A stretch of DNA of 64,000 bases from Sanderia malayensis. Its lineage: Eukaryota; Cnidaria; Scyphozoa; Semaeostomeae; Pelagiidae. The DNA lies in NCBI GenBank assembly GCA_013076295.1, contig RQOL01000498.1:186001-250000 (forward strand), in the 5' to 3' direction. The position numbers and the translations under genes were made by a program. Shown piece by piece: positions 50,963 through 62,887 of this stretch. The notes under the pieces are model-generated. The model did not search any database. It was not told where the DNA came from and saw nothing but the letters and a program-made list of their open reading frames with translations. Within the stretch, counting starts at the first letter, position 1. Every line of letters starts with the position of its first letter.

Positions 50963-51063
50963 TAAAAGTGGAAAATAGACAAAGCAATTCTTTCACTTCC
51001 CAAACGTACAGCCGACATAGTTGCATCAAAAGGGAGATGACTGAAATATTAACATTAACGTAG
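50963..51063 (+). pseudogene. C-terminal remnant of a Tc1/mariner transposase
   Basis: Encodes KWKIDKAILSLPKR on the + strand, matching the last residues of the transposase at 61308-62387, then a stop. Everything upstream is missing. Confidence 0.8.
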
Positions 51064-51196
51064 AGCACTAACGATTGACAGCAAATGTAATGTTTTCAAT
51101 GTATCTGTATCTATACGAACACAACAAAACGAATTATTTCATGATTATGACCACTGCTACGGGATTCTAATTTAGTCTGCCCAACGAATAACACAC

Positions 51197-51407
51197 GGTT
51201 AAGGGACGATTAACGGACGGGACGGATAACATCATAGTCTATAGTTATTCAGTACAAAATTCCACAATTAACACGGTCAACGGCAATTATTATAAAATAT
51301 TAGTTATAATATTTATAAGAATATGCCGTTAACTGTGTTATTCGTCAAATTTAGTACTGAATAGCTATAGACTATGGTGTTATCTGTCTATTAATCGTCT
51401 GTTAACC
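51197..51407. repeat. palindrome in the inverted element copy
   Basis: Counterpart of 60958-61163, with ggttaa...gttaacc arms and an AT-rich apex (aaaatattagttataatatt). The arms carry more mismatches than the right copy. Confidence 0.85.
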
Positions 51408-51633
51408 ATCCATTGTTCACATGATTCCAAGTATTAAACATGGTGGGTGGTGCCACATTATGGGCGTTTAGTATGTGTCACTGATGGAAGTGACCTTAGG
51501 ATGCTAAAATTAAACTGTCATGCTCAACAAGGGTGATATTCCACTGCCTGTTTGTTTATGCCCTTGTCGCTGCATCGGTGCATGTTCCCTGAAACAAAAT
51601 TTGCATTTCTCAGAAGAGCCAAATAATTTGTGT

Positions 51634-52409
51634 GCGTTGAAACTGTTCATTTTAAAATGGATCACTATGATTTCGAATTGAAACAAATCTAATAACGTAC
51701 AGTAGGGCAGATTTGACGAAGTTTCCCCGCAGGGAATCATTTGGAAAGTCTGTTGTGGAGGCTTTTACTCATAATGAATCTTGCGTGAGTGTGGCTCATT
51801 GGGTGTGTAGTCAAGAGAAACATCAGGATGGGGAAGAGCACTATCCTGTTGCAATAAAGTTGACAGGAAACAAGCGATGGAAATCGGCTAAGATGTTCCT
51901 GTTAGATAGATTTGGGATTTCAGTGCATTTCTCCAATCGTCATGACAATTATTACACTGCCTACTCGTATGCAGTGAAGTCAGACAATAATGCATTCCAT
52001 AGCGAGAACCACCCAAACTTATCACATTCCCCAAAGACAAAATCGGGCACGATGGCCAGGCGAAGGTCAAAGGCGGAGAATCAAGCTTGCTTCCAGCTCT
52101 ACCAAATCCGTCTATGTAGCTCAGAGAAAGCGCAGAATTTCCAATTTGGAAGTCTCAGATATTGTCCTGAAGAACAAAATCAGAAAAGGCGTGGCACTAC
52201 TGGCTCTTGCCAACGAGCAAAAAGTAGAAGGCAAGACTGATTTGGCTGAGTGGGTGTTAAGTCGTCAAGCAAAAGCCAGGGCAGAGCTGATCTCTTCCAC
52301 TTGGGGAATGCAAGAAGCCTCTGCTAAGTTGTTGCGCCAGCAGACAAAAAGATTGAACGTGATTGCACAAGCTGTACAAAAGCTAGTATTACTCGGCTCT
52401 GAAATGTGA
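51634..52409 (+). pseudogene. broken Rep gene (HUH damaged, helicase deleted)
   Basis: Same protein as the Rep at 59356-60735, with four lesions. About 22 bases are lost near 51685, which removes the link to the start. The second histidine of the HUH motif is proline (HYP, near 51839). An 8-base deletion near 52085 shifts the frame. About 570 bases covering the whole SF3 helicase domain are missing near 52380, so QAVQK is joined directly to LVLLGSEM. It cannot be functional. The shared ends show that it derives from the full-length form. Confidence 0.85.
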
Positions 52410-52824
52410 TTAACTGATGGACTATATGATTAGTAACAGATAGAAAAACTTGAAATTATGAATTCTTACTTTATCCCTCAAACTTGGCGCAGCGCTTCAC
52501 TTTGATGGAGTAATTTAATTTTAATCATATGTTTGGCATCAATTTGGCATCTGAGCACAGAAAAAAATAGAAAAAAGTTATGATGTGACTTGTTCAAGCA
52601 CAATTGTAAATTATCTATAAACACAAATGCCTAACACACCTTTTTCAGCCCCATAATGTTCCCCACATAAAGTGAGCCTCGTTTTCAATGTCTGTGACGT
52701 CACAAAAGCTAATTAGCATTAGTTACACCATTTTGAGCACCAGATTCGAACTCAGCGGGTTGAAATTGTCCATAATATATAAAATCAGGCATGCCGGGCT
52801 GATATTCTTTAATTTCCACCAAAG

Positions 52825-53088
52825 ACAATCATTGACAGAACGTCTTGAGACAATGAAATATTTTCATCACTTTTCAATGAGAAACGCAATTTCCTTCCAA
52901 AATACAGAGCCACCCCCTCCCCCAAATCAATGTTGCTATTTTTGATGGACAGGTTTATCAGGGAGTGCTAAAAACACTTTCCAAACATCCTCAGCATTGA
53001 ATAGGGGGTGCGGGGGTCGATTTTTTCGGGACATGTGAGAAAATTCAGGGCATTCTTTTACTGTCTCACACCTTATGGCGAGGATTGT
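52825..53088 (+). repeat. terminal repeat of the inverted element copy
   Basis: Reverse complement of the 266-bp terminal repeat at 58675-58940, with scattered substitutions. Edges ACAATC and GATTGT. Confidence 0.85.
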
Positions 53089-54778: not shown

Positions 54779-57700
54779 CTAACTGATGTTGTCAGTGGCG
54801 AACATTATGGGGAAGTGTGTGACACCCCCCCCCCTCAATATTTCCTGACTCGGTCTGGAAATTTTGATATGCTTAACAAATATTGTCCCTGAGCATACTA
54901 AAAGGCCGCATCGTTTAGAACAATGCAATACAAAAGAGATTGTTTGCATATCATTGTTCCATTGTTGCAGAAATTGGTCTTTCAAAACAAATTTAACTCT
55001 ATTTACAATGCTACGTAATTGGGTATCTGTCGGTGACTCCCAAACATTGGACATGCCACAGCTATCAAGAATGTTTTTCACGGATTTCATCCACCTTATG
55101 TTTTCATAATTAGATAACAAATTATTGTAAAGACTGAGGGAAATTTTAGTTTCCTTTCCTCTTAGCATTTTAACCCAAAAGCTAATCATCCTAATTTTTA
55201 TTGTAATTGAAACAGGGTAACGTCCTAGCTCCCCATACGCCATATCTTTAAGAGTCGATTTTTGTAAGTTTAAGATTAATTTATAATACTGAATTTCTAA
55301 CTCGTCTATCATATTTGTATTTTCTAAACCCCATACTTCTGCCCCATACGTTATTATAGGTAGAACCAGCGAATCGAATAGTTTTAATTGAAGATCAACA
55401 GGCATGGTAGTCATTCTCGCTTTTGAAACAATATATCTCATCGCCTTATTAGCCTGTGTTTTCAATAACTTCATTACACTTAAAAACCTCCCATTACTTT
55501 TAAAAGTAACCCCAAGATACTTGAACTCGTTTACTATATCTAAATCTTTCCATTGACACAAAATTTTAATTTTTTGCTCCACCTGCCACTTCTGGAAAAA
55601 GTCATAACCTTAGATTTCCCAATGTTAACTTTTAGTTTCCAACTGTTACTGTAATTTTCTAGATTGTTCAAAGAGTTTTGCAGTGATTCAGGTGATGTAG
55701 CGAAAAGAACAGTATCATCAGCATATAACAGACTGAAAAGTTGTAATGTAATACTGTCGAATTCTAGTAAAAGCCATCTGACGCTGATTGTTCTAAAGAA
55801 GCCTCCAAATCATTTAAGAAAATCGAGAAAAGCAGAGGTGAAAGGTTCTCCCCTCGTCTAACACCAGAATTACAGAAAAAGCTCTCACTATAATCATTAT
55901 TCTTAGCTACCATGGACTTAATGCCTTTATACATGTTCACAATTACGGAAAGACATTTTCCCTTGATACCATTATTAATCAATTTCATCCAAAGACCACT
56001 CCTCCAAACAGTGTCAAAAGCTTTCTCATAATCAATGAAGGCGCAGTATAGTTTCTTTCCCTTGCTGAGGAAATATTCAGCAATAAGGTGAAGGTTCAAT
56101 ATATGATCAGTTGTAGAATAGCCATGTCGAAAACCAGCTTGATTTTCAAGTAGTAAACTATTAGTTTCTAAAAAGCTTGATAACCTTTTATTTAGAATCC
56201 CAGTAAACACTTTTCCAAGACAACTTACCAGAGTAATGCCTCTATAGTTTCCTGGATCCTCCTTTGATCCTTTGTTTTTATAAATGGGTTTTATTATACC
56301 TACAAGCCATACCTCAGGAAAAATACCGACATCAAATATCAAATTAAAGATTATAATCAATGTTTTAACTATTTTATCTATACCATATTTTAGAAATTCA
56401 TTTAAGACACCGTCTACGCCAGATGCTTTATTATTTTTTAACTTTTTAACAACAGCTCTAATTTCATCTTCACTAATGGCCATGTTAAGTGTATTTTCCT
56501 CATCTTCTCCTGTTGTTGTTGACTGATTTAACTCTGTGTCGTTAATATGTTCATCATTTAAACCTTCATTCAGTTTTTTAAAATGTAAATATAGAGAATC
56601 CAATGATATTTTATCTGTTGGGCTTTCCTTTTTTCCCTTAATGATTCTCCAAAAATCCTGCGGATTTTTTGCACTGAGCTTTCTAAGTTTATCATTAAAT
56701 TTGACATTGAACTTTTTCTTAAATTTATTTAATGTTCTTTTATATTCTTTTTTAACATTATTCATCTTTTTGCGATTATTAGCATTTGGCTTTGACAAAT
56801 AAGATCTCCTATGCCTTGTGAAACAATTTTTCTTGTTTCTACATTCTTTCCCAAACCAAGGTTTATCGTTTGGTCTAAAATTACCCCATTGCTTTACTGG
56901 GAAAGTATTTTTAGCACTACCTATAAGCAATTCATTAAGACAGTTTATAGCATCATCAATTAGCTTTTTAGAATCCTTATCATCGATTTTAGAAGTATCT
57001 TGCTCCTTTATTGTTTTGTCAATTCCGTCAAGTTTTGTGGCATCAATATCATCATTAAATTTTAAAATAACACCTTCATTCCAATCCTTAACTATATGTT
57101 TTGATTTCAGACTATTACCAGGGTTACCTGTACTGGTATTGTTTTGCAGTTCACTTTCAGTATCTGGATTTTGTTCACAGTAATTTTTGAAAACTATTTC
57201 AAGTGAGTTATGGACATCTGAGAACAGAGGGTTAAAATCACAAATCTTAAATTCACGACATGCGCAAAGCACCTCGGCACTACCTATTGCATAATCAACT
57301 ACTGAAATATCATGACAAGTTGTTTTCCCAACCCCTGCATCCTTGCCTACTCCTCCATTCATGATAAAAAGATCACAGTTTCTACAAAGATTGATTAGAT
57401 TATCCCCATGGCTATTCTTCATTTTATCCTGTGAGGCTCTGGCAAGAGGTATATTAGACTCAATCAATTTTCTAGTACTAACTCTAGTATTATCTGGTAA
57501 ATCATTTGCCTCTATGCCTGTGTATTCCAAAACACTATCATCAAACTCAACAAAATCTGTTAAATCCTTTGTTCTTGCATTAAAATCTCCTGCAAGCAGA
57601 ATATCAAATTCCTTATTCTTTAAGATGGCAATTTCTCGCTCTAAAATTTCAAACATTTCATCATCGTAATAATTAGAACCGATCGGTGGGATATATACAA

Positions 57701-58022
57701 AACCTATTGCAATTTTTTGTGCATTCCCAAATTGTTTTGTTTTCTCCTTCAACCACACTACCATGGCTGTACTCTTATGGAGCTCTATATTGTCACTTAC
57801 AGTATCTCGTATTGCAACATAAATTCCACCTGACCTTGTTCTCTTTTTGCATTTTCTGTTTGCCATGAAAGTGGTTTTAAAGCCTGTTAAATTAAACTGG
57901 TCAAAATCATCTGCTTTAGATTCACCAAATGCTATAATATCATAGTTTGAAATTAACTCTTGGAATTCAGGGGTTTCAACCTTATTCCGTAACCCATTAA
58001 CATTAACGAATAATATTTTCAA
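54779..58022 (-). pseudogene. LINE ORF2: endonuclease and reverse transcriptase, two frameshifts
   Basis: The ATG at 58022 opens the endonuclease (MKILFVNVNGLRNKV, then FGESKADDF and LLAGDFNART). The RT follows with NYRGITLVSCLGKVF, FIDYEKAFDTVW (first catalytic Asp) and SGVRRGENLSPLLFSIF. The frame is lost near 55765; the YADD motif (LLYADDTVLFA) lies just downstream in another frame (near 55712-55745), and the frame changes again near 55545 before FKYLGVTFKSNGRF. It would copy its own RNA at nicked DNA; this copy is inactive. Extra stretches between endonuclease and RT are lysine- and asparagine-rich. Confidence 0.9.
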
Positions 58023-58091
58023 ATTAGAAACAGCGTTACTGCCTATTACATTTTTAGAGTTTGAATTTTGCTCACCAAATCGTTCATGACA

Positions 58092-58342
58092 TCCTTACTC
58101 GCTTTGACCTTCAAGAACCACCATTTTGTCATCAATGAAGAGCCTGTCTGCATTTAATCTTACCTTTCTTCCATTCTGCTTGGCATCTTTGAAAAGTGGC
58201 CATAATTTTTTCCTTCGCTCTTAAACCTCTGGTGGGAATTGCTCTGCCACGCTTATGCTTGTTCCGGCAAGACGTTTGGCAGAATACTTAACTTTTTCCT
58301 TTACTTTAAAACTTGAAAACTTGGCAATGATTGGCCTTGCTC
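58092..58342 (-). pseudogene. LINE ORF1 C-terminal domain remnant
   Basis: Minus-strand frame with RPIIAKFSSFKVKEKV, EQFPPEV-stop-ERRKKLWPLFKDA and RLFIDDKMVVLEG, ending about 70 bases upstream of ORF2. This pattern (R-P-hh-KF, then KLWP-h-AK, then h-DD/DG) resembles the C-terminal RNA-binding domain of L1-type ORF1p. One in-frame stop and the missing N-terminus make it a remnant. Confidence 0.65.
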
Positions 58343-58573: not shown

Positions 58574-58674
58574 CTAGCAAAAAATGCAAGTAGGATAACT
58601 AACTCTGTAAATGTAACTCAATTTAAGCAACAAAACTAGCATGTTGTGACAATGTGCAGTGATTTTTTCTAACT

Positions 58675-58940
58675 ACAATCCTCGCCATAAGGTGTGAGAC
58701 AGTAAAAGAATGCTCTGAATTTTCTCACATGTCCCGAAAAAAATCGACCCCCCACCCCCTATTCAATGTTGAGGATGTTTGGAAAGTGTTTTTAGCACTC
58801 CCTGATAAACCTGTCCATCAAAAATAGCAACATTGATTTGGGGGGAGGGGGGTGGCTCTGTATTTTGGAAGAAAATTTTGTTTCTCATTGAAAAGTGATG
58901 AAAATTTTTCATTGTCTCAAGACCTTCTGTCAATGATTGT
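58675..58940. repeat. 266-bp terminal direct repeat, left copy
   Basis: Starts ACAATCCTCGCC and ends CAATGATTGT. By eye it is identical to 62598-62863. Its own two edges are imperfect inverted repeats of each other. Contains a G-rich tract (ggggggaggggggtgg) near 58840-58855. Confidence 0.9.
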
Positions 58941-59355
58941 CTTTGGTGGAAATTAAAGAATATCTGGTCGGCATGCCTGATTTTATATATTATGGGCAAT
59001 TTTAACCCGCTGAGTTCGAATCTGGTGCTCAAAATGGTGTAACTAATGCTAATTAGCTTTTGTGACGTCACAGACATTGAAAACGAGGCTCATTTTCTGT
59101 GGGGTACATTATTGGGCTGAAAAAGGTGTGTTAGGCATTTGTGTTTATAGATAATTTACAATTGTGCTTGAACAAGTCACATCATAACTTTTTTCTATTT
59201 TTCTCTGTGCCCAGATGGCAATTTTTTGCCAAACATATGATTACAATTAAATTACTCCATCAAAGTGCAGCGCTGCGCCAAGTTTGAGGAATAAAGTAAG
59301 AATTCATAATTTCATGTTTTTCTATCTGTTACTAATCATATAGTCCATCAACTAT

Positions 59356-60735
59356 TCACATTTCAGAGCCGAGTAATACTAGCTCAGAGAAACAGTGTCC
59401 ACAAGCATTAATTTCCTTCTGATCTTGAATAGCTATCTGTTGGGTAAACTCAAAAATCCTCCATCGTGCTTGCATCATTTCTGTTTCTCGGGGGTCTCTT
59501 GAGTTATACTTCCCAACAAATTCAATTGCACCTTTGCTAGTGGCAAATACTGGTGTATCTTGCTCCAAATAAATGTCCTGTGCATACTGCGACTTTGGAG
59601 CAGGAAAATGCACGGCTTGCCCCTCTAAAAGAAGAAGCAGATCCTTCCACACGATCAATTCATTTGACCATCTGAAGTCATTCATCAGAATGATCTCCGC
59701 TTCTTCCACTCCTATCCACGCATACGAGGTGGTAGCAGGATTTGAAAATGTTGCATAAAGCAATTTCAAAGGCTCTAGCATAAATGTTTTGCCACAATTT
59801 GCCGGCCGAATAATCAAAATGTTTCTATTTTTTCCCCGCCCTTTCTCTAATAACGCCCTCAAAGCATCAGCAAATACGTAAGGGTGAATGTGGTTGCTTC
59901 GCAGAAGTTCCTTTGCAGCATTCAGGCAATTTCCGTTGCAGCCTGAGATACACTCTTTTTGTACAGCTTGTGCAATCACGTCCAATCTTTTTGTCTGCTG
60001 GCGCAACAACTTAGCAGAGGCTTCTTGCATTCCCCAAGTGGAAGAGATCAGCTCTGCCCTGGCTTTTGCTTGATGACTTAACACCCACTCAGCCAAATCA
60101 TTCTTGCCTTCTACTTTTTGCTCGTTGGCAAGAGCCAGTAGTGCCAAGTCTTTTCTGATTTTGTTCTTCAGGACAATATCTGAGACTTCCAAATTGGAAA
60201 TTCTGCGCTTTCTGTGAGGTACATAGACGGATTTGGTAGAGCTGGAAGCAAGCTTGCCCTCTTGATTCTCCGCCTTTGACCTTCGCCTGGCTATCGTGCC
60301 CGATTTTGTCTTCGGGGAATGTGATAAGTTTGGGTGGTTCTCGCTATGGAATGCATTATTGTCTGACTTCACTGCGTACGAGTAGGCAGTGTAATAATTG
60401 TCATGACGATTGGAGAAATGCACCGAAATCCCAAATCTATCTAACAGGAACATCTTAGCCGATTTCCATCGCTTGTTTCCTGTCAACTTTATTGCAACAT
60501 GATAGTGCTCTTCCCCATCCTGATGTTTCTCTTGACTACACACCCAATGAGCCACACTCACGCGAGATTCGTTATGAGTAAAAGCCTCCACAACAGACTT
60601 TCCAAATGATTCCCTGCTGGGAAACTTCGTCAAATCTGCCCTACTGTACGTTATTAGATACGTACTGCGCACAACCTTGAATTTCAATTCGAAATCACAG
60701 TGATCCATTTTAAAAAGAACAGTTTCAACGCACAC
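59356..60735 (-). CDS. Rep-like protein: HUH endonuclease plus SF3-like helicase
   Basis: 459 residues, uninterrupted. HUH nuclease: motif I LITYSRAD (27-34), motif II HYH (77-79), motif III YAVK with Tyr120 and Lys123. After a basic linker (147-180) come cysteines C262/C266/C270. The SF3-like helicase has a P-loop RPANCGKTF (310-318), a Walker B-like IILMNDF (348-354) and a motif C region TPVFATS (394-400); CGHC (445-448) may bind zinc. This is the domain order of CRESS-DNA virus and parvovirus-type Reps, which nick an origin hairpin and unwind DNA. Odd: the first P-loop Gly is Arg. I recall similar proteins repeated in aquatic invertebrate genomes. The start could instead be Met10. Confidence 0.85.
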   Translation of the reverse strand: MCVETVLFKMDHCDFELKFKVVRSTYLITYSRADLTKFPSRESFGKSVVEAFTHNESRVSVAHWVCSQEKHQDGEEHYHVAIKLTGNKRWKSAKMFLLDRFGISVHFSNRHDNYYTAYSYAVKSDNNAFHSENHPNLSHSPKTKSGTIARRRSKAENQEGKLASSSTKSVYVPHRKRRISNLEVSDIVLKNKIRKDLALLALANEQKVEGKNDLAEWVLSHQAKARAELISSTWGMQEASAKLLRQQTKRLDVIAQAVQKECISGCNGNCLNAAKELLRSNHIHPYVFADALRALLEKGRGKNRNILIIRPANCGKTFMLEPLKLLYATFSNPATTSYAWIGVEEAEIILMNDFRWSNELIVWKDLLLLLEGQAVHFPAPKSQYAQDIYLEQDTPVFATSKGAIEFVGKYNSRDPRETEMMQARWRIFEFTQQIAIQDQKEINACGHCFSELVLLGSEM

Positions 60736-60957
60736 AAATTATTTGGCTCTTCTGAGAAATGCAAGTTTTGTTTGAGGGAACATGCACTGATGCAGCGACA
60801 AGGACATAAACAAACAGACAGTGGAATATCACCCCTGCTGAGCATGACAGTTTAATTTTAGCATCCTAAGGTCATTTCAATCAGTGACACATACTAAACG
60901 TCCATAATGTGGCACCACCCACCATGTTTAATACTTGGAATCGTGTGAACAATGGAT

Positions 60958-61163
60958 GGTTAACGGACGATTAACGGACGGATAACACCATAGTCCATAG
61001 TTATTCAGTAATAAATTTGACGAATAACACGGTTAACGGCATATTCTTATAAATATTATAACTAATATTTTAAAATAATTGCCGTTAACCGTGTTAATCG
61101 TGGAATTTAGTACTGAATGACTATAGACTATGGTGTTATCCGTCCGTTAATCGTCCGTTAACC
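60958..61163. repeat. 206-bp palindrome between transposase and Rep genes
   Basis: Near-perfect inverted repeat: GGTTAACGGACGATTAACGG at the left edge and its reverse complement at the right, centred near 61060. The arms hold tandem TTAACGGACG motifs; the apex is AT-rich and includes taatatttta on one strand and taatatttat on the other. It lies upstream of Rep and is kept in the second copy (51197-51407). Candidate Rep origin; a palindromic MITE nested in the ancestor is the main alternative. Confidence 0.8.
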
Positions 61164-61307
61164 GTGTGTTATTCGTTGGGCAGATTAAATTAGAATCCCG
61201 TAGCAGTTGTCATAATCATGAAATAATTCGTTTCGTTGTGTTCGTATTGATACAGATACATTGAAAACATTACATTTGCTGTCAATCGTTAGTGTTCTAC
61301 GTTAATG

Positions 61308-62387
61308 TTAATATTTCAGCCTTCTCCCTTTTGATGCAATTATGTCGGCTATACGTTTGGGAAGTGAAAGAATTGTTTTGTCTATTTTCCACTTTGGTAT
61401 TCTGTTCATAGTCTCAATGATTCTATCCTGAAACTCCTGCTTTGACTCTCTCGTGATATTCTGTTGCACGGCATCTTTTTCTAATTGTTTTCGGACAAGA
61501 TGAAAGAAGTTTTCGATTGGGTTTAAATCAGGGCTACGAGGTGGTATTGAAAACAGATCTGCTTCTACGTCCTCCATTGCTTCTTTTGCCGATGAGCTGT
61601 TTTGAGAAGGATCTCCGTCCTGTAGAAATATCCTTGAATTTTTATTGGCCTTTTTAACCATCACATCAAAGTTTTCACGAAGAAACGTTGCAAAATAATC
61701 TCCATTCATTTTTTCATACGGTACAGCTGCAATCACTCCTTCTTCAAAAGATATGGCCACAATTAGCTTCACATAATTTCCTCCTGTTCCGCATTTGCTG
61801 CCTTTTGCAACGCAGCCTGCCAATAGCCCTTCGCATGGGCGTCTCCAAACTCTGCCTGAAGGTGCAAGACCTTGCGACTTAGGATTTCTCTTGTACACGA
61901 AACTGACCCCATCTAAGTAAAAAGCGATTGTATGTGTCCACAAACTATTGGTGTGCTTCAGCATGACCATTTTTGCAAATTGGATCCTTTTTTCTCTGTC
62001 ATCTGCAGACATTAGACCTTTTCTGCGAGTTTGCAAATATCGGTATCCATTGTTATTTAAAAATCTGTTGATTGTCCTGGTTGATACATGATCCACCCCA
62101 GAAACCTCCATGAGTCGCTTAATTGTCCAATTTGGTTCTTGTTGTCGCAGTATTTGCAATTGTCGCAATAAGTTGCGCTTGCTCCTTTCATCGAGCTTTT
62201 CAGGCCGATGGTGTACATATTTTTTAACTGTTGTTGTGCGGCTAACTGGTTCTTTTTTAATACGATATATTTGTGCTCTTGATACACTTAGTTTAGAGGA
62301 AAGCTCCCATACACTTTCTTTGCTCAATTTAATATATGCCCTCACATAGGGGGGAATAGGTTTGTGATACACCATGTTGATAAGCAC
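61308..62387 (-). CDS. Tc1/mariner-type DD34E transposase
   Basis: 359 residues. An N-terminal helix-turn-helix region (VWELSSKLSVSRAQIYRIKK, 26-45) and a second one near 87-115 would bind the inverted termini. DDE catalytic core: Asp159 (FYLDG), Asp257 (LQDGDP) and Glu292 (SPDLNPIE), with 34 residues between the last two. Length is normal for the family. It would cut and join at TA dinucleotides, which agrees with the TA flanks of the element. It ends 573 bases upstream of the Rep start on the same strand. The true start may be Met5. Confidence 0.92.
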   Translation of the reverse strand: MLINMVYHKPIPPYVRAYIKLSKESVWELSSKLSVSRAQIYRIKKEPVSRTTTVKKYVHHRPEKLDERSKRNLLRQLQILRQQEPNWTIKRLMEVSGVDHVSTRTINRFLNNNGYRYLQTRRKGLMSADDREKRIQFAKMVMLKHTNSLWTHTIAFYLDGVSFVYKRNPKSQGLAPSGRVWRRPCEGLLAGCVAKGSKCGTGGNYVKLIVAISFEEGVIAAVPYEKMNGDYFATFLRENFDVMVKKANKNSRIFLQDGDPSQNSSSAKEAMEDVEADLFSIPPRSPDLNPIENFFHLVRKQLEKDAVQQNITRESKQEFQDRIIETMNRIPKWKIDKTILSLPKRIADIIASKGRRLKY

Positions 62388-62597
62388 TTGTCAATTTTTT
62401 CCACGATAACAGCTCTTGAGAAAAACTTTAATAATCTGACGTCACAATAGGAGTCTGGTGCCGACTTGATAAGTATTGATTAGTTAATTATAGACCTTCC
62501 CCTAATTCTAGAAATGGTATACTCCAAAAGCACCCTAAGCTATTCTAATAGCTCGTATCTCCACTCCACCATGAGAGGGCTTTTGTGTCAAGAAAAG

Positions 62598-62863
62598 ACA
62601 ATCCTCGCCATAAGGTGTGAGACAGTAAAAGAATGCTCTGAATTTTCTCACATGTCCCGAAAAAAATCGACCCCCCACCCCCTATTCAATGTTGAGGATG
62701 TTTGGAAAGTGTTTTTAGCACTCCCTGATAAACCTGTCCATCAAAAATAGCAACATTGATTTGGGGGGAGGGGGGTGGCTCTGTATTTTGGAAGAAAATT
62801 TTGTTTCTCATTGAAAAGTGATGAAAATTTTTCATTGTCTCAAGACCTTCTGTCAATGATTGT
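62598..62863. repeat. 266-bp terminal direct repeat, right copy
   Basis: I read no difference from 58675-58940. The inner edge is AAAAG|ACAATC and the outer edge GATTGT|AGT-TA. Confidence 0.9.
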
Positions 62864-62887
62864 AGTTATATGAATACAACAACAAAC

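Follow-up and report, generated by a model that had tools for sequence, protein, structure and literature searches.

Tc1/mariner transposons such as Sleeping Beauty and Tc3 encode a DD34E transposase and insert at TA, and ordinary members consist of one gene between simple terminal inverted repeats (TIRs). Rep proteins that join an HUH nuclease to a superfamily 3 (SF3) helicase are found in CRESS-DNA viruses and parvoviruses, while the Rep of Helitrons carries an SF1 (Pif1-like) helicase and the elements insert without a target-site duplication (TSD). Here we analyse a stretch of 64,000 nucleotides from the scyphozoan Sanderia malayensis (assembly GCA_013076295.1, contig RQOL01000498.1, positions 186,001 to 250,000), referred to below as the window, which contains a TA-flanked element encoding both a Tc1-like DD34E transposase and an HUH-SF3 Rep. 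The findings point to a transposon that may, in addition to jumping, multiply as a small circular replicon.

The closest described layout is that of KolobokP (Kojima and Bao, 2022, PMC9587614), from which the name long terminal direct repeat (LTDR) is adopted. In the parts of that paper compared here, KolobokP has the structure LTDR-INT-LTDR, in which each LTDR has short inverted tips of its own and INT, the region between them, contains a DDE transposase and a nuclease. Solo LTDRs, multimers of the form (LTDR-INT)n-LTDR, and junctions that lack the LTDR and carry excision scars are also described, and all of these have counterparts in the element from the window. The enzymes are different. 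The same parts of the paper give KolobokP a Kolobok transposase, TSDs of 3-5 bp, LTDRs of about 450 or 660 bp, and a His-Me homing endonuclease, which its authors propose to provoke recombination by nicking; the window-type element has a Tc1-like DD34E transposase, TA, LTDRs of 254–293 bp, an HUH-SF3 Rep and a palindrome with iterons.

A repeat with both a Rep-like and a transposase gene between terminal inverted repeats is already known from the truffle Tuber melanosporum, according to the passages compared of the description of its geminivirus-like transposon (Liu et al., 2011, PMC3198968). Those passages report interrupted or truncated frames, 37-bp TIRs and no obvious TSD; they mention no long direct repeats or multimers, and do not state the class of the transposase. 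Teratorn likewise combines a transposase (piggyBac) with a replicon (a herpesvirus genome, about 180 kb in all), and in the sections compared its authors propose that concatemers give rise to units flanked by two transposon copies (PMC10175614). The window-type element can be read as having a layout like that of KolobokP, a cycle like the concatemer route proposed for Teratorn, and enzymes of Tc1/mariner and CRESS/parvovirus type. A literature search over titles and abstract openings, with most subscription papers and bioRxiv outside its coverage, found no Tc1-plus-Rep element, which does not prove its absence from print.

Structure of the element and its insertion site

The features of the window that concern this element are the following.

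58676..62862, genes on the minus strand: whole element (LTDR-INT-LTDR), 4187 bp, from repeat comparison and the empty site
58674..58675: left TA target-site duplication (a single TA at the empty site C440:172904-173203)
62863..62864: right TA target-site duplication, from comparison with the empty site
58676..58939: left LTDR, 264 bp, with its own inverted tips CAATC...GATTG and inner inverted CAATGTTG/CAACATTG beside C/G tracts
62599..62862: right LTDR, 264 bp, with zero differences from the left LTDR
61308..62375, minus strand: Tc1-like DD34E transposase, about 355 residues, from Pfam, PDB sequence matches and triad alignment
59356..60708, minus strand: Rep with HUH nuclease and SF3 helicase, 450 residues, with HYH at 68, YAVK at 111 and NCGKTF at 304
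60947..61174: palindrome, putative Rep origin, with 112-nt arms that are 85% complementary, TTAACGGACG-type iterons and a fold z of -18.7
50965..53088, plus strand: older relic of a second copy, with one LTDR, part of Rep, the palindrome and the 3' end of the transposase

Genome-wide searches covered the 184-Mb assembly, in which the window is part of the contig labelled C440. A search for the host gene COX1 found nothing in this assembly; an HSP70 gene is present. The flanks of the element, joined with a single TA and used as a query, gave 15 matches, of which one spans the entire query (300/300 bases, 99%). This empty site, at C440:172904-173203 on the same contig, reads TTCTAACTAGTTATATG base by base and has one TA only, so that the 4187 bp either arrived together or grew within a single TA insertion. 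The duplication of TA is that expected of Tc1/mariner. A preliminary description of this DNA, made from the sequence alone, had proposed one TA-flanked unit with inverted tips at 58672..62866 (4195 bp); the unit stands, with the exact borders listed above. KDZ exons had been placed on both flanks; here only the right flank shows KDZ similarity (E 1.2e-5, just below the curated cut-off).

The ends are not plain inverted repeats, as had been thought, but the 264-bp direct repeats, which had been missed and which are key to the working of the element. The element thus departs from the simple Tc1/mariner plan of a transposase gene between two TIRs only, both in these repeats and in its Rep. The outermost tips are short and imperfectly inverted (CAATCCTCGCCATAAGGT / CAATCATTGACAGAAGGT), and every LTDR opens with CAATC and closes with GATTG, and therefore has a full inverted-tip pair of its own. 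The LTDRs of four families (264, 254, 293 and 279 bp) have in common the inverted tips and the inner inverted CAATGTTG/CAACATTG by C and G tracts, and a fifth set, from a gene-less derivative, has only one of the two inner motifs exactly. These inner motifs recur in LTDRs that otherwise have little in common, and may serve the transposase as inner sites or form structured DNA.

The outer sides of the LTDRs are mainly TA-flanked; towards the interior, the families of the window, C466 and C859 have AGA(repeat)TCT. Among 38 outer ends, taken from 30 repeat copies that include mutual duplicates, 22 are next to TA, 12 next to TG or CA and 4 next to other dinucleotides. Two insertions with both ends in view have TG/TG (C522) and CA/CA (C440:149532-158156). 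Solo LTDRs also sit at TA, and one of these, on C850, is identical to the window LTDR. Three LTDR copies (L019, L020 and L025, on C818, C859 and C405) apparently lie inside another repeat, with near-same flanks and no matching target duplication. At C169:79654-82191 and C642:55992-58534, two opposed LTDRs about 2.3 kb apart surround pieces of transposase, a rearranged form common to both.

Both genes lie on the minus strand of the window element, as had been described. The transposase has the triad D160, D258 and E293, with a D258-E293 spacing of 34, and matches the Tc1-type Pfam families DDE_3 (1.2e-12) and HTH_Tnp_Tc3_2 (1.5e-8), the latter supplying the helix-turn-helix of the group, so that the original DD34E assignment is upheld. 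Its PDB sequence matches include SB100X, from Sleeping Beauty (7.2e-6), and Tc3 (6.3e-4). No Kolobok transposase or His-Me family appears among the Pfam matches listed up to E 1 for the two main proteins.

The Rep was correctly recognised as complete, its frame being intact with HUH, YxxK and SF3 motifs, although one near-invariant P-loop position deviates; its own Pfam scores lie just below cut-off. Its nuclease part is geminivirus-like and its helicase part resembles those of adeno-associated virus (AAV) and papillomaviruses, with fold matches to the Reps of tomato yellow leaf curl virus and AAV. The family residue at the deviating helicase position is kept in 4/4 other family copies read there, and the Rep of the window copy may for this reason be inactive. 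The element does not fit a Helitron, since the helicase part fits SF3 structures and TA is duplicated. CRESS-DNA viruses and parvoviruses differ from the window element in that the latter is a TA-flanked genomic repeat in which no capsid gene was seen. Public sequences include 225 homologues of the Rep, which suggests that the Rep module is widespread.

A frame of long interspersed nuclear element (LINE) type with endonuclease (Exo_endo_phos) and reverse transcriptase (RVT_1) domains (55764-58094, minus strand) lies close to the element on its left. There are signs of segmental duplication within C440, between about 148-173 kb and about 237-250 kb, and this is the source of the empty site; the left flank of an older insertion in the duplication also borders the relic at 50965-53088. 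The relic, originally described as a second copy with the same gene order, is indeed from a second copy, but the claim about order was overstated because the genes are partial: the Rep lacks 572 bp, the transposase frame is reduced to its final 88 bp, and there is a single end repeat.

Recurrence of the gene pair across the assembly

The assembly contains at least 113 transposase matches and at least 95 Rep matches, both totals being lower bounds. A whole-assembly search for repeated co-occurrence, proposed in the preliminary description, found a transposase match within 3 kb of 74 of the 95 Rep matches, in several divergent families that are about 40–55% alike; 75 of the 113 transposase matches have a Rep match within the same distance. 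The chance expectation is approximately 0.4% per match. The orientation of the 74 pairs, determined by script, is convergent in 61, divergent in 8 and same-strand in 5, the last being five Rep matches of the window family, and the gene order in the window is exceptional. Among the copies examined, which partly cover the 38 Rep-less transposase matches, none was seen in which the transposase gene is closely bracketed by TIRs of its own, an arrangement that would have indicated that Rep came from a separate insertion. There is strong support for assigning the two genes to a single element that integrates at TA.

The reading frames of the two genes are preserved from family to family, with synonymous sites saturated (proportion of differences, pS, 0.73–0.87). 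Ratios of nonsynonymous to synonymous change (dN/dS) range from 0.24 to 1.6 in closely related pairs, which are too close or decayed to weigh, in a comparison that left out C303_L061. For other organisms, linkage was tested indirectly, through exact size coincidences between the longest contigs of the clusters listed for Rep (150 distinct sizes) and for the transposase (115). Over all sizes there are 6 coincidences, against a mean of 2.08 and a maximum of 6 under shifts (3/200 shifts reach 6), and above 3 kb there are 5, against a mean of 0.81 and a maximum of 4. Many homologous proteins lie on contigs of about 3.6–4.9 kb, near one unit length, which could represent circles, collapsed tandem arrays, or assembly habits only.

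Multimers, matching ends and the palindrome

The general structure of the family is (LTDR-INT)n-LTDR, with head-to-tail multimers sharing LTDRs, and two n=2 units are TA-flanked at both ends. One of these, on C303, consists of two units plus an LTDR (8212 bp), in which the units are 1 mismatch apart over 3016 bp and the three LTDRs are 0 or 1 substitution apart. The other, on C859, has two units and three identical LTDRs. TA-containing minisatellites surround the C859 multimer (L061) and lie beside that of C303 (L067/L069). At the start of contig C466 there are at least 8 tandem units with a period of about 3933 bp, mostly 99.9–100% identical.

Some internal junctions have lost their LTDR. On C466 it is missing at 2 of the 7 junctions in the stretch read, one being clean and one having CA remaining, and the clean junction is found at three further loci. 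On C829 it is missing at all three internal junctions, each with a different scar, while at the ends of this array the right LTDR is present before TA and the left LTDR is without its outer tip. Such independent scars show that LTDRs were excised individually, which is what a transposase of Tc1 type would be expected to do; scars of 2 nt are typical of Tc1. Integration and excision by the transposase are well supported.

The two LTDRs of a young insertion match closely, with 0 differences in the window, C781 and C686, 1 in C522 and 3 in C628. The LTDRs of C781 and C686 are 7 substitutions and 1 gap apart, even though each insertion's own pair is identical. Older copies lack this agreement, although in the insertion at C440:149532-158156 several subfamily variants are common to both LTDRs. 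Matching ends would result if insertions were copied from a circle or multimer that has a single LTDR for each unit, or from gene conversion, and would not be produced by two ends that evolved independently.

The palindrome is located between the Rep and transposase genes, and its repeated short motifs differ by family: ACCAACGAGTT-like in C466, where the palindrome is 94% complementary over 53 nt, and GGGTAACC in L052/L053/L055. An AT-rich centre with TTTAAA(A)TAATT is common to the window, L052/L053 and C466. In a 1.8-kb derivative (C781, C686) only remnants of the two genes are left, but the LTDRs and the entire palindrome are kept. Its interior (1007 nt) gave at least 41 matches over essentially the full query, in all of which the palindrome is present partly by construction, because the query included it; independently of this query, it is present in 3/3 close direct LTDR pairs of the derivative kind (C781, C686, C45). 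The derivative also forms arrays, of 13 units (C20), 5 (C478), 4 and 2 (C405), 3 (C492), and 2 each (C464, C299, C655).

Circle replication or recombination

On the basis of these observations, we propose a Tc1/mariner transposon of composite-like build to which a Rep module for replication has been added. The transposase would cut either at the outer tips of the LTDRs or at the two tips of a single LTDR, and paste at TA. Rep would bind the family-specific iterons and nick the AT-rich loop of the palindrome, replicating an LTDR+INT circle and so producing concatemers, from which the transposase would take LTDR-INT-LTDR pieces with identical ends. Gene-less derivatives that have LTDRs and palindrome could then use both proteins in trans. 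We infer the Rep-driven circle replication, and give the full model, including it, a probability of about 0.6. The boldest version, a true replicon stage in which Rep multiplies the LTDR-INT circle from a palindromic origin, the Tc1-type transposase inserts units at TA, singly or several together, and LTR-like identical ends arise by concatemer capture, as a convergent counterpart of KolobokP that has a virus-like replicase where the latter has a homing endonuclease, stands in our view at even odds.

Several observations weigh against circle replication, or against the simple form of the model. No circle or nick was seen in these data, which are those of a genome assembly. In the derivative array on C478, 5/5 non-terminal LTDRs read carry two deletions, one of 7 bp and one at the junction, and the right terminal LTDR has neither, so that the array was not captured as a whole concatemer but grew out of a single altered unit next to an older LTDR; it could have grown by unequal crossover/recombination or by homology-driven insertion of circles. 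The substitution rate of the palindrome in the derivative is not lowered (0.053–0.061 per site, compared with 0.045–0.060 in its surroundings). The palindrome of C829 is weak and has few iterons, and the exact NANTATTAC nonanucleotide, a sequence that origins of CRESS type carry in a stem-loop, is absent from five intergenic regions. The ends of older insertions need not match: on C627 the two LTDRs differ from each other by 8, and at C440:149532-158156 they differ by 15, which is no less than the 13 between the left LTDR of that copy and the LTDR of the window. Finally, no partner lies within 3 kb of 21/95 Rep and 38/113 transposase matches. The cycle suggested originally, of circular replication followed by DDE integration, fits the multimers, the matching ends and the palindrome-keeping derivative, but homologous recombination between repeats fits them too.

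The most serious alternative is the same composite element with no circle replication by Rep. In this case unequal crossover, gene conversion or circles formed by recombination would account for the multimers and matching ends, and Rep would be at most a nickase that provokes recombination. The private changes shared by the non-terminal C478 LTDRs speak for it, as do the multimers and scars that KolobokP makes with no Rep, according to the parts compared of Kojima and Bao (2022, PMC9587614). By itself it does not explain why an SF3 helicase is retained with the nuclease, or why the gene-less derivative keeps the whole iteron palindrome, although the unlowered palindrome rate blunts the second point. 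The C478 array, this rate and the Rep-free multimers of KolobokP are what hold the full model to the figure given above, and they leave the recombination explanation the less likely of the two.

The resemblance of the Rep to those of geminiviruses and AAV would also fit a CRESS-like virus that became endogenous, acquired a transposase and retains a virion stage. This is very unlikely: among element frames of at least 80 residues no capsid-size frame stands out beyond the two main genes, which were the genes scanned for families, and scanning viral contigs in IMG/VR for the Rep gave no confirmed relative. A Rep scan of prokaryote genomes found none, and a PHROGs search gave a weak, unrelated match only. 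That the tandem arrays are assembly artefacts is highly improbable. C36, with matches along it, is only 25.7 kb long and the array on C466 extends to the very start of the contig, but those on C303, C859 and C829 are embedded in contigs of 5.9–6.7 Mb, and the internal junctions of C829 have different scars. Chance nesting of a Rep from another insertion in a Tc1 element, for which the 21 unpaired Rep matches might be cited, is rejected with near certainty, since the empty site records one insertion and the pairing recurs, with a conserved arrangement, in several divergent families.

Two mobilisation chemistries are thus joined within one 4-kb eukaryotic element, and the paired-end layout of KolobokP exists also with a different transposase superfamily and a different nuclease. 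The element offers a compact system in which to ask if DDE transposons are able to multiply outside the chromosome as replicons, and bears on the exchange of parts between Rep replicons and transposons.

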